The notes beneath the pieces were generated by a model. That model worked only from the letters and a program-made list of their open reading frames with translations, had not been told where the DNA came from and searched no databases. Made by a program: the position numbers and the translations under genes. A stretch of 47,803 nt of DNA from a virus: IMG/VR virus record IMGVR_UViG_3300034375_010407, positions 1-47,803 of that record, one strand, 5' to 3'. Below, in pieces: positions 2,973-46,453 of the stretch; within the stretch, counting starts at the first letter, position 1, and every line of letters begins with the position of its first letter.

Positions 2973-3938
2973 TTATGAGAAAAAATCATCCAATGAAGCC
3001 CTACGCTCAATATCCCAACCTTTAACTGCGGCAAAAGATCTTACTGGCTCTAAAAAGGTTTTATTAAACTGCTCTTCAACGTTAATATATTTATCCAAGC
3101 CGAGTTCTTTTGGAAGCTCATCTGGAGCTGCAATTACCGTATCATATGAAGGATTTGGCATTTTAAGATAAGCAAATCTAATTTTATCGCCTTCGTTAAT
3201 CATAGGTAATACATTTTCAAGTTTCTTTCTTTTTACCATATCGTTGTAAATTAAAGCGCCTTTTACATGTATAGGGGTTCCTAATTTGTAAAGTTTAACT
3301 GGATCTGAATACTTTTTAAGCCCCTTCACACCAGAAGGTTTTGCAATTTTTTCAAAGGGCATTTTACTATGCTCTTCTTTAAACTTTGAAATTGATTCAA
3401 TTAATTCTTTTTCAGTTCCTTGAAGGAAAATTTTATACATTTTTTCTAAGGCTTCTCTACAAACATGTGGAGTTGAAGAACGAATAGCCTCAACGCCTGA
3501 GATTTTAATAAGGGGTTCTGAATATCTAACACCTTCAATATCCCACGCCGCCATAATATACATTTTCTTTTTACGCCAAATTGCAGTTTCAGCAATAATT
3601 TCGCGCTTCATTTTCATTTTTTGTAGATTTGAGTTCATATATACCGAAAGGTCTTTATAACAGTTTTCAATATAAGACTCAACTTTTTGTTGAATAAATT
3701 TATCTAACGAATCTACAATTTTAGTTTTATCAGTTTGGTCAGCAAAAACCCTATCAACTAATTCTTTCATTTCAACATAAATAGAGTCAGTATCCGAGGC
3801 AATTACATAATCAACATCCTTTGTTTTTAAAAGCTTATTCATATACATGTTCATTCGGTCGCCAATCCACCGAATAGATAATTGCCCAGACGTAGTAATT
3901 GCCTCAGCTAAGTTGCGGTCGAACCACCTAAAATACAC
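2973..3938 (-). CDS. 43: gp43B DNA polymerase, C-terminal part (palm motif C, thumb, clamp-binding tail)
   Basis: These 321 residues cover the end of family B polymerase gp43. FRWFDRNLAEAITTSGQ matches the segment just after motif B, ASDTDSIYV (about residues 47-55) is catalytic motif C with its two aspartates, and the C-terminus ERRASLDDFFS matches the clamp-binding peptide of T4-type polymerases. The only start in this frame near the family position is a GTG (3936-3938) without a convincing ribosome binding site. The open frame continues to a stop at 3975-3977 and in it one reads LGNVYFRW, the natural continuation of NSAYGA, which is coded in another frame just upstream. The fragment thus lacks motif B unless ribosomes cross the break at 3945-3958. 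Joined that way, gp43B would be 371 residues. Confidence 0.9.
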   Translation of the reverse strand: MYFRWFDRNLAEAITTSGQLSIRWIGDRMNMYMNKLLKTKDVDYVIASDTDSIYVEMKELVDRVFADQTDKTKIVDSLDKFIQQKVESYIENCYKDLSVYMNSNLQKMKMKREIIAETAIWRKKKMYIMAAWDIEGVRYSEPLIKISGVEAIRSSTPHVCREALEKMYKIFLQGTEKELIESISKFKEEHSKMPFEKIAKPSGVKGLKKYSDPVKLYKLGTPIHVKGALIYNDMVKRKKLENVLPMINEGDKIRFAYLKMPNPSYDTVIAAPDELPKELGLDKYINVEEQFNKTFLEPVRSFAAVKGWDIERRASLDDFFS

Positions 3939-3944
3939 ATTACC

Positions 3945-3958
3945 CAGATTCGCTACAG
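3945..3958 (-). other. candidate translational bypass (hop) site in gp43B
   Basis: On the minus strand the reading frame for NSAYGAL ends in CTG followed at once by TAG. Eight bases (TAGCGAAT) separate that CTG from a second CTG, and reading on from the second gives GGT AAT GTG TAT TTT, that is GNVYF, the expected family sequence. CGCT-CTGT-AGCG around the first CTG and the stop can form a 4-bp hairpin with a tetraloop. Matched take-off and landing codons, a stop right after take-off and a hairpin are the hallmarks of T4 gene 60 bypassing. An 11-base insertion, or a sequencing or assembly error, would look the same. Confidence 0.45.
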
Positions 3959-4099
3959 AGCGCCATAGGCAGAATTAAGTTGAATTTTCTTCGCTTGTTG
4001 CATATTATGGTAGCGAGAAATATCATTAATTAATTGCCTACGACGCGCCAATAGCTCCTCCTTTCTTTTTGCGCTGGTTACATTTTTTTCAAATTCCAT
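3953..4099 (-). CDS. 43: gp43B DNA polymerase, middle segment with motif B (fingers helix)
   Basis: A 48-codon frame begins at ATG 4097-4099 with a purine-rich AAAGGAAAGG about 8 bases upstream, and ends at TAG 3953-3955. It encodes ISRYHNMQQAKKIQLNSAYG followed by AL. This is the second fingers helix plus motif B (Lys plus NSxYG), which binds the incoming nucleotide in family B polymerases. It starts 17 bases after the stop of the N-terminal part, so re-initiation is plausible. Taken alone it would be a 48-residue peptide ending in the middle of the catalytic motif. It makes sense only if continued into the frame at 3947 by the candidate hop, or if the break is an error or mutation. Confidence 0.8.
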   Translation of the reverse strand: MEFEKNVTSAKRKEELLARRRQLINDISRYHNMQQAKKIQLNSAYGAL

Positions 4100-4116
4100 T
4101 CCGTAGCCTTTCCTTT

Positions 4117-5656: not shown

Positions 5657-5663
5657 CTTTCTT

Positions 5664-5819
5664 CTACCGAATACTTTGGTAAACTGCTTCGCGGATTTCG
5701 CCGCGAGATAAACCAATGTCGTTAAGATCTCTATCTGACATTTGTTCTAATTCTTTAATTGCTCGTTCAGCAGATGATCTCTCAAATGCTTTCACGATAT
5801 TCTTGAAGAAATTCTTCAT
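5664..5819 (-). CDS. DUF1127-family small protein
   Basis: This is a 51-residue protein starting MKNFFKNIVKAFE. The segment ERAIKELEQMSDRDLNDIGL followed by SRGEIREAV is typical of the DUF1127 (YjiS-like) domain, a short basic two-helix motif abundant in Alphaproteobacteria, where some members affect RNA turnover. The ATG at 5817-5819 is preferred over an in-frame ATG at 5852 because GAGGATAAAACTA precedes it. The gene overlaps the end of the Hsp20 gene by 38 bases and ends at a strong terminator. DUF1127 is a bacterial-type domain, so acquisition from a host is likely. The role in the phage is unknown. Confidence 0.85.
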   Translation of the reverse strand: MKNFFKNIVKAFERSSAERAIKELEQMSDRDLNDIGLSRGEIREAVYQSIR

Positions 5820-6246
5820 TAGTTTTATCCTCGTTTTTTTGATTAATTTCAATTTTACGAGGCTTCAGCTCTTCTGGGATTTCAATCTTCAGTTGTACTG
5901 ACAGAATGCCATCCTGAAAGTCTGCTCCATTTACAATAACATATTCAGACAGCCTAAAGGTGCGTTTGAATTTCTTGGTGGAAATACCACGGTGAATATA
6001 CTCGCGACCCTTCGATACGTGCTCGCCAGTTACAGTTAGGATCCTATCCTCAACTTCAATGGCTAGTTCATCTTTATTAAATCCAGCAACAGCAAGCTCA
6101 ATCAGATAATTGTGATCATCAGTTTTGAGAATGTTGTGTGGAGGATAATGATCAGCAGAATGTCTGGCAGCTCGATCAAGCTCATTCATCAAGTGATCAA
6201 ATCCAATAAAAGTTGAACGTGGTAGTAAAGTTTTAACGCCTGTCAT
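5782..6246 (-). CDS. hsp20: small heat shock protein (Hsp20 / alpha-crystallin family)
   Basis: This 154-residue IbpA-like chaperone holds unfolding proteins in an ATP-independent way. The alpha-crystallin domain spans about residues 38-135: YLIELAVAGFNKDELAIEVE, then LTVTGEH and the closing strand DGILSVQLKIEIPEE. A C-terminal I-x-I (IEI) tail motif is present. The ATG at 6244-6246 has a strong AAAAGGAG site. Hsp20 genes are common in marine T4-like phages, probably supporting capsid protein folding. It is followed in an overlapping arrangement by the DUF1127 gene, and the pair is bounded by an AT-rich leader with a palindrome on one side and a terminator on the other. Confidence 0.95.
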   Translation of the reverse strand: MTGVKTLLPRSTFIGFDHLMNELDRAARHSADHYPPHNILKTDDHNYLIELAVAGFNKDELAIEVEDRILTVTGEHVSKGREYIHRGISTKKFKRTFRLSEYVIVNGADFQDGILSVQLKIEIPEELKPRKIEINQKNEDKTNEEFLQEYRESI

Positions 6247-11057: not shown

Positions 11058-11462
11058 TTATTTAGGATTAATATGTTTTTTATGAACCCTAACCCATATA
11101 TGTCCATTATACCAATCATCGTTTTCTAAAACTTCGTTTACGAATTGATGTTTCGCTTCAAAGTAATTACACTCACCTTTAGTTTTACATAAGTTTAGTA
11201 TTTTTCTTTGAAAATTTGATTCGCCGAGTTTTTTTACATCTTCTTTAAGTTCTTCATTAGAACCCCAATATTTTTTCCAATCAGTTTCTTTGATGACTCG
11301 TTTTCTACGGGTCTTTCCTTTAACTTTTTTTGATCTTGTACTCTTAAAAAGCTTTTTTCCAATATATTTTTTATTATTGGTAAGGTTTGTTATTATATAG
11401 ACGAATCCAATATAATCATCTATAAGAGATTCGTCTAATTCTTTTTCATCATATATCCACAT
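11058..11462 (-). CDS. GIY-YIG-like nuclease of the T4-like phage family
   Basis: The 134-residue protein has GFVYIITNLTNNKKYIGKK at about residues 18-36, matching the GIY-YIG core, followed by a lysine- and arginine-rich stretch and WKKYWGSNEELKEDVKKLG. Similar stand-alone putative endonucleases are common in T4-like marine phages. They may be homing-type or host-DNA-degrading enzymes; the small size and lack of a DNA-binding NUMOD module argue against a classical homing endonuclease. It lies downstream of the nrdB and zinc ribbon genes. Confidence 0.75.
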   Translation of the reverse strand: MWIYDEKELDESLIDDYIGFVYIITNLTNNKKYIGKKLFKSTRSKKVKGKTRRKRVIKETDWKKYWGSNEELKEDVKKLGESNFQRKILNLCKTKGECNYFEAKHQFVNEVLENDDWYNGHIWVRVHKKHINPK

Positions 11463-45706: not shown

Positions 45707-46426
45707 TTACATTACCTCAAACCCAGATTGTAAAAGCATTTCATATTTATCTGTACCAGGAACTGCCATTTTTCTTGTTTCTCCATTTTTTAACCATTTT
45801 ATTCCTTGTTTAGAAGCTTTTACCTTTGCCCTATGTATTGGATTATTCATGGCATTATTTTCTGACATTTTCTTTAAAGTTTCTTGCGAGTGTTTCGTGC
45901 CATAAGTACCGATTTTTTTCTCTTTGTGTAATCTTTTAGTATTTTCGCTTATCTTTTTTCTAGTTTCATCGGTCCTTGGATTTTCTTTATAATATTTTTT
46001 CATAGCCTTAGAAGTAGAAATAGATATTTTTTTCTTAGTTTCTTCTGATAAAACCTTTCCCTTTGCCCATTTGCCCATATTAGGATTGGATTTATGCGAT
46101 TTAGAAATTTTTTGGCCCACCGTTAATCTAGAATTTTCTTCATTCCACCAATAATTATTATGTGTAGTAAATACTAAATTATAATATCTTTCCTTTTTAT
46201 TTTCTGCTAATTGTAGCCATTTTTCTTCTAAACCCAGCAATAAAGATCTTTCATCTGTTTTTTCTATTATTTTTCTTTTAAAATCATCAGGCCTTCTTCG
46301 ATACGCATTTCTCATTCTATTGGAAGAACAAATATACCCATCATGTTCCAAGCCCCAATGGGAACCAATATAGTACATATTCCTTTTACGATCATACCAT
46401 ATATAAACGAATCCATATTTTTCCAT
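45707..46426 (-). CDS. GIY-YIG homing endonuclease between gp14 and gp15
   Basis: The 239-residue protein has an N-terminal GIY-YIG nuclease core (YGFVYIWYDRKRNMYYIGSH), several NUMOD3-type helix repeats (SEETKKKIS, TDETRKKIS, SQETLKKMS) for DNA contact, and a C-terminal GIKWLKNGETRKMAVPGTDK. This matches phage Seg-type free-standing homing endonucleases. An upstream TTG opens the frame, but the ATG at 46424-46426 follows GGAGGTAATT, a strong site. It has its own late promoter box. It is a selfish insertion between two genes that normally adjoin. Confidence 0.92.
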   Translation of the reverse strand: MEKYGFVYIWYDRKRNMYYIGSHWGLEHDGYICSSNRMRNAYRRRPDDFKRKIIEKTDERSLLLGLEEKWLQLAENKKERYYNLVFTTHNNYWWNEENSRLTVGQKISKSHKSNPNMGKWAKGKVLSEETKKKISISTSKAMKKYYKENPRTDETRKKISENTKRLHKEKKIGTYGTKHSQETLKKMSENNAMNNPIHRAKVKASKQGIKWLKNGETRKMAVPGTDKYEMLLQSGFEVM

Positions 46427-46453
46427 AATTACCTCCAAAATTTTATATAATTG

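Follow-up and report, generated by a model that had tools for sequence, protein, structure and literature searches.

To our knowledge, efficient bypassing in phages was previously known from essentially one gene, gene 60 of T4. In work on recoding, it has long been presumed that nature should also hold shorter counterparts in which the codons match. In T4 gene 60, bypassing relies on a take-off hairpin and a 5' stem-loop together with the nascent peptide (PMC11194080, PMC5009743). For landing, minimal pairing can suffice according to T4 reporter work, as the title of a study in the reference list of PMC3014915 puts it. A natural in-frame stop-hop was not known as of 2016 (PMC5009743). In Aeromonas phage 25, the polymerase parts 43A and 43B co-purify and are active (PMC2988022).

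Here, we analyze a T4-like phage fragment of 47.8 kb recorded in IMG/VR (hereafter, the window), which carries gp43, the gene of a family B DNA polymerase, on the minus strand. Comparison with related loci indicates that this split gp43 very probably contains a miniature translational bypass (stop-hop), the insert probably being part of a mobile homing cassette.

The gp43 locus in the window

gp43 is broken twice in the window, by a split between 43A and 43B (4117/4099) and by a gap at 3955 (Table 1). The 43A part gives Pfam matches to DNA_pol_B_exo1 and DNA_pol_B, and its C-terminus EELSKLG-TAG corresponds to the fingers tip. 43B is read in a different frame and ends with KKIQLNSAYGAL-TAG. 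In the interrupted relatives described below, the distance from the 43B start to the take-off codon is 44–48 codons (41 in one case). 43C lies in the third frame, has its stop at 2973, and shares 56–58% amino acid identity with relatives. The two ORF parts are thus disjoint and separated by a non-coding gap, and uninterrupted homologues join both parts exactly.

Around the gap, the minus strand reads AAT TCT GCC TAT GGC GCT CTG, then TAGCGAAT, then CTG GGT AAT GTG TAT TTT. The order of CTG, 8-nt gap, and CTG is therefore as given in a preliminary description of this DNA. The same description let the polymerase frame run through NSAYGAL into TAG, which is correct for the motif and the stop, but both belong to a separate 48-codon ORF and not to the main ORF of 484 aa (5571-4117). 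Four things escaped it: that 43A and 43B are split, the homing endonuclease with its remnant, the family of interrupted loci as a whole, and why the insert is probably there.

Table 1 Features of the gp43 locus in the window
Feature	Position	Strand	Basis
gp43A, N-terminal gp43 part (exonuclease, palm start, first fingers half), 484 aa	4117..5571	-	ORF; Pfam; alignment with unbroken relatives
Probable GIY-YIG homing endonuclease remnant, last 13 codons, KGKATEWNLKKM*; also contains the Shine-Dalgarno-like AAAGGAAAGG and the 43B start	4078..4116	-	Likeness to endonuclease tails
gp43B first part, 48 codons, from ATG 4099 to take-off; second fingers helix to NSAYGAL (motif B)	3956..4099	-	ORF
Take-off codon CTG (Leu)	3956..3958	-	Matches landing codon
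Putative bypassed gap TAGCGAAT, UAG stop first	3948..3955	-	In three identical assemblies; absent from 53 unsplit relatives
Landing codon CTG (Leu)	3945..3947	-	Matches take-off codon
43C, C-terminal gp43 part from GGT AAT (GNVYFRW...), remaining palm with DTDS, thumb	2973..3944	-	ORF; Pfam

Just upstream of gp43, at 5661-6246 (minus strand), the window carries an Hsp20 gene followed by a short ORF, which we take to resemble bacterial DUF1127 proteins. Hsp20 is also found near gp43 in cyanophage relatives.

A family of interrupted polymerase loci

With the N-terminal polymerase part as query, which is blind to the break, 80 loci were found. The majority carry a single unbroken gp43 with NSAYGALGN. 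In the diverged loci L028, L034, L051, and L057, the same split at the fingers tip is accompanied by an interruption in the same motif, for example GCT CTT [TAG] CTC GGG AAC. We combined this search with two degenerate pattern scans and an endonuclease-profile scan and obtained, after de-duplication, 43 distinct T4-like polymerase loci interrupted at the identical motif, many of which recur in several metagenomes. All mini-gap loci lie on metagenome contigs. The GenBank phage matches examined at the protein and DNA level, among hundreds of weaker matches, contained only intron-bearing or uninterrupted genes and no cultured phage with a mini-gap.

As a background, the degenerate pattern was run against 257 Gb of bacterial and archaeal genomes from GTDB. 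It gave 13 matches, none of them in a polymerase, and these genome contig matches were set aside as chance hits. A pattern that is agnostic to stops detected 28 stretches, which comprised 27 polymerase sites and one unrelated chance match. A stop codon followed immediately in 27/27 polymerase sites; hence, the search pattern does not account for the stop. Reassignment of TAG to an amino acid was rejected, as the frame in the window would stay unrestored and TAA and TGA also occur at the site.

Two further IMG/VR contigs, 3300007345 and 3300025671, are 100% identical to the window across the site over 6055 and 4309 bp, respectively; the three assemblies differ in their ends, and the underlying samples are possibly not independent. 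In view of these contigs and the 42 further distinct interrupted loci, an assembly or sequencing error was rejected. Two observations named beforehand as arguments against a hop were both absent: No relative with near-identical flanks and an intact frame was found, and neither the window record nor the 178-kb contig of L123, which has the same arrangement, contains a second polB gene.

Gap length, codon matching, and reading frame

The stop codon directly follows the take-off codon in 43/43 loci. Take-off and landing codons are synonymous in 40 of the 43, so the conservation of codon, gap, and codon in relatives, proposed earlier as a check, is borne out. The pairs are GGN/GGN, CTN/CTN, and one Ser pair, TCC [TAGCGAA] TCT in L202. 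The first two bases are common to both codons in all 40 synonymous pairs, and 18 pairs are fully identical. As the loci are related, we give no P value for this match, which could also stem in part from an origin of the inserts by tandem duplication.

The gap measures 2–8 nt (1 nt in a minority reading), and the lengths 2, 3, 4, 5, 6, 7, and 8 all occur. Insert lengths are distributed over the three frames with 19, 16, and 8 loci. There are 19 distinct gap sequences, namely TA (16 loci), TAG, TGA, TAA, TAGC, TAACT, TAATT, TAACTA, TAGATA, TAGCTA, TAGTGA, TAGTTA, TAGTTT, TAGCGAA, TGAATAA, TGACTAA, TGACTAT, TAGCGAAT, and T. The last one is confined to the sub-family of L028, L098, and L135, which reads CTG GGT TAGC AAC without a matched landing codon. 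In these three loci, the ribosome would have to land on AGC despite the mismatch or else shift by +1 and add a serine.

Frame INDIFFERENCE is evident from pairs of relatives whose gap lengths differ by 1 or 4 nt while 43C is open and constrained. L086 (TAGC) and L087 (TAG) share 89% amino acid identity in 43C, with pS of 0.79 and pN of 0.065. The identity in 43C is 77% for L106 (TAG) and L132 (TA), and 70% both for L133 (TAGTTA) and L134 (TA) and for L128 (TAGTTA) and L144 (TA). Gaps in all frames and differences of 1 or 4 nt between close relatives do not fit any single frameshift or readthrough event, whereas re-pairing at the landing codon does. That the codon match is kept while the gap length changes is a stronger argument than the match itself.

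Under conventional recoding, the mode would depend on gap length, with a −1 frameshift for 2, 5, or 8 nt, readthrough for 3 or 6 nt, and a +1 shift for 1, 4, or 7 nt, and the product would have one to four additional residues within motif B. Taken locus by locus, a single event of this sort would in most cases lead into the 43C frame with no further stop on the way. Moreover, UAG followed by C is a weak termination context, which is present in the window and in several Leu-type loci, and L028, L098, and L135 are most simply read as cases of a +1 shift at GGU-UAG-C. For the family, we consider this explanation unlikely because three mechanisms would be required at one site, the synonymous flanking codons would remain unexplained, relatives as close as L086 and L087 differ by 1 nt, and the extra residues would fall in the near-invariant YGxxGN motif. 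In addition, TAGTGA in L092 represents two successive in-frame stops, and L113 and L129 have stops both in frame 0 and in the frame needed by a +1 or −2 shift.

A separate start of 43C was considered as well. In most loci, the first in-frame ATG, GTG, or TTG of 43C is located 50–100 nt downstream, within conserved palm sequence. In the window, none of these codons occurs in the 43C frame upstream of GTG 3938. This GTG, described earlier as poorly placed, is the sole nearby start and would lose the conserved GN. A three-piece polymerase, with 43C produced separately from 43A and 43B by termination-reinitiation near the gap and assembled in trans, could make use of this codon, and a two-piece gp43 is real in Aeromonas phage 25 (PMC2988022). 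It is nevertheless a distinctly unlikely solution: Most loci lack a start codon before the conserved residues, the landing codons GGT, CTC, and TCT are not starts, the codon matching would have no explanation, and the break would fall in the middle of motif B.

43C is under purifying selection, with dN/dS of about 0.02–0.14 in those pairs for which dS is measurable. This value bears on the question of whether gp43 is a decaying pseudogene or the product of an assembly or sequencing error. Two breaks in one gene and the long branch of the window in the 43C tree would suit such an origin. Three identical assemblies, 43 distinct loci, the low dN/dS, and the status of gp43 as the single essential polymerase make it extremely unlikely.

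RNA structure and possible stimulators

The 120 nt around the gap in the window fold no better than shuffled sequences (z = +0.68). The hairpin CGCT/AGCG proposed around the take-off codon exists on paper as a 4-bp pairing, but with this z value and without conservation in relatives it was rejected. The upstream TCGCTA, placed at about 4009-4014 in the preliminary description, is located at 4011-4016, and its 6-nt complementarity to the gap, the suggested stimulator, is not conserved either. A take-off stem-loop with the stop inside the gap does not occur, because gaps of 2–8 nt are too short for it.

One clade of 13 loci has a 9-bp hairpin (TTCARTTGG...CCAAYTGAA) whose end lies about 19 nt 5' of the take-off codon. 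Two of its pairs covary, 95.6% of cells are paired, and 4 of 500 shuffles reached the covariation score. The hairpin is found at L094:5286-5348, at L095:9716-9778, and in 11 further loci. It may be a counterpart of the T4 5' stem-loop in this clade but is not general, and it is absent from the window, where 3 of the 9 pairs form. With regard to a stimulatory nascent peptide, the 43B peptide is conserved, yet it is also polymerase sequence. We do not claim the distance of about 46 codons from start to take-off as a requirement for the hop because gapless endonuclease-bearing genes are split at the same place.

Association with homing endonucleases

Where the flank of an interrupted locus is long enough, the interval between 43A and 43B is in most cases filled by a GIY-YIG endonuclease ORF of about 235 aa. 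This interval often measures 716–727 nt, and 43B begins within or right next to the final endonuclease codons. The Pfam match of this endonuclease to SegE_GIY-YIG is weak and below the cut-off. The endonuclease-profile scan, which is blind to the interruption, yielded 45 full-length loci, and 45/45 are at the 43A/43B joint. The gap is present in 28 of them, and the site is uninterrupted in 17. Among the analyzed loci, 39/39 interrupted ones are split, and 0/53 unsplit ones are interrupted.

YGA[LIMV] is encoded in all 53 unsplit and all 39 analyzed interrupted genes but in 0/15 distinct uninterrupted endonuclease-bearing genes, which have YGS or YGAC instead. Fisher's P for this contrast is 2e-15, a value that overstates independence because most of the 15 genes cluster together in the tree. 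Judged by these sequences, a gene that carries the endonuclease shows the gap or altered codons at the putative target, and an intact target never occurs.

The insert also appears at the end of conversion tracts. Over the roughly 930 nt that precede the gap, L034 and L057 share 97% identity, which falls to about 74% on the far side. L094 and L120 show 97–100% identity up to the gap and then drop to about 75%, and L160 and L161 behave similarly. The endonuclease lies beside the insert and the tract reaches it; the window keeps only the endonuclease tail. In the 43C tree, a quick tree with long branches, the interrupted state cannot be explained with fewer than 5 changes on well-supported branches, or 10 overall. 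The window, L028, L034, L051, L057, L092, and L135 are placed among or beside unsplit relatives. Such a scattered distribution is expected from horizontal spread by homing.

L122 corresponds to L093 minus the endonuclease, with the gap retained. In the window, KGKATEWNLKKM has the same offset as the endonuclease tails KGKSKGWICKKI (L093) and KGKAKGWLCQKI* (L094), with 25/39 nt and 6–7/13 residues identical (shuffle P ≤ 0.004). Thus, the window probably represents the same case as L122, in which the endonuclease was lost and the hop site kept.

Several further arrangements were noted. At L026:6481-7053, the same fingers-tip split holds a different, HNH-like endonuclease, and motif B is uninterrupted. 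The split can be wider, with about 4 kb between 43A and 43B in L094 and matches to both parts about 6.7 kb apart on the contig of L106 (G010), where other genes have widened it. An in-frame TAG within the 43A match on the L124 contig (G005:C1:17699-17968) is perhaps a further polymerase interruption. Elsewhere in the window, a second gene resembling GIY-YIG/NUMOD3 homing endonucleases lies between two structural genes (45707-46438, minus strand), and a SegE-like GIY-YIG protein (136.9 bits) is encoded at 11058-11462 (minus strand).

In the cultured phage phiAS4, a group I intron (RF00028, 69.4 bits, E 1.9e-17) occupies the same YGA/GN site. 43B, annotated as 'DNA polymerase-like protein', ends with INSLYGAF* and is followed by the intron and then by GNNFFRFYDL; the annotation of Aes508 has the same arrangement. 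The phiAS4 record HM452125 (L154:3941-4187) has no feature for the intron, and the downstream 'split DNA polymerase' CDS starts just past the intron match. The phiAS4 intron, the mini-gaps, and the altered codons at one site suggest three ways of protection there. As an intron exists at this very position, the inserts may descend from introns, and one could imagine that they are removed at the RNA level, as degenerate introns or by editing. We give this hardly any weight: Inserts of 4–11 nt are too small for a ribozyme, no Rfam intron match was obtained in the window, and we know of no editing system in T4-like phages of this kind.

Proposed mechanism

According to our model, a GIY-YIG homing endonuclease gene would have inserted at the fingers tip, splitting gp43 into 43A and 43B. 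The extra bases about 140 nt downstream would destroy the endonuclease target in motif B, where cutting presumably takes place, and the carrier genome would be protected. In the window, the endonuclease gene would have been lost except for its tail, with the hop persisting.

During translation, the ribosome would start 43B at ATG 4099 and arrive at the Leu codon CTG, at which point UAG would occupy the A site. Once the peptidyl-tRNA(Leu) had released CUG, the mRNA would shift by 11 nt, and the tRNA would re-pair with the second CUG. Decoding would restart at GGU and give NSAYGAL-GNVYFRW with zero extra residues. We infer the hopping itself with high confidence from the comparative evidence, which strongly supports the core of the preliminary description, namely that ribosomes make a short jump across a stop from one codon to its match, in the manner of gene 60.

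For the family as a whole, it is likely that the loci form a large natural group of frame-indifferent micro-bypasses of 2–8 nt, in which the ordinary ribosomes of environmental hosts would re-pair the peptidyl-tRNA beyond the stop with an efficiency sufficient to supply the sole replicative polymerase, without a gap hairpin of the T4 type. The gaps would then serve as the immunity component of a homing cassette dispersed among T4-like phages.

Significance and comparison with known systems

If this is true, the loci are the first large natural family of such short hops. The 43 candidates at one site vary naturally in gap length, codon pair, stop type, and flanking RNA and thus offer a ready mutant series for the question of what a ribosome requires for hopping. 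Protection against a homing endonuclease is a candidate reason for the evolution of bypassing, in parallel to mobA of T4. For annotation, the loci are a warning that a polymerase in a virome may be functional even when it is split or frameshifted. No mention of short hops in gp43 was found in the open-access papers searched.

T4 gene 60 with mobA is the parallel in logic and position, and the stop directly after take-off is also found in the gp43 family. The gene is different, however, being that of the DNA polymerase, and the endonuclease is of the GIY-YIG instead of the HNH class. The gap comprises 2–8 nt in place of 50, which makes a gap hairpin impossible, and the gp43 family has dozens of mini-gap members, compared with one for gene 60. 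In the gp43 family, no counterpart of the KKYK-type nascent-peptide signal of gene 60 was identified. We do not term the gp43 insert a gene 60 element, but regard it as one that would work in a similar way, because gene, endonuclease class, and gap size differ and the take-off stem-loop is lacking.

Synthetic stop-hops in E. coli share their design, matched codons around a stop, with the loci of the type CTT-TAG-CTT, CTT-TAG-CTC, and GGT-TAG-GGA. Unlike these constructs, the gp43 gaps are natural, conserved, and situated in an essential gene, and they exceed a single stop (8 nt in the window). The mitochondrial byps of Magnusiomyces capitatus are likewise inserts in essential genes that are skipped during translation (PMC5009743). 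In contrast to byps, the gp43 gaps concern bacterial ribosomes and phage genes, are shorter, occur at one site only, and have a stop after take-off. The Aeromonas phages 25, phiAS4, and Aes508 likewise have a split gp43 with a GIY-YIG (seg43-type) endonuclease between 43A and 43B, and in phiAS4 and Aes508, a self-splicing group I intron takes the place that the mini-gap has in the gp43 family described here.
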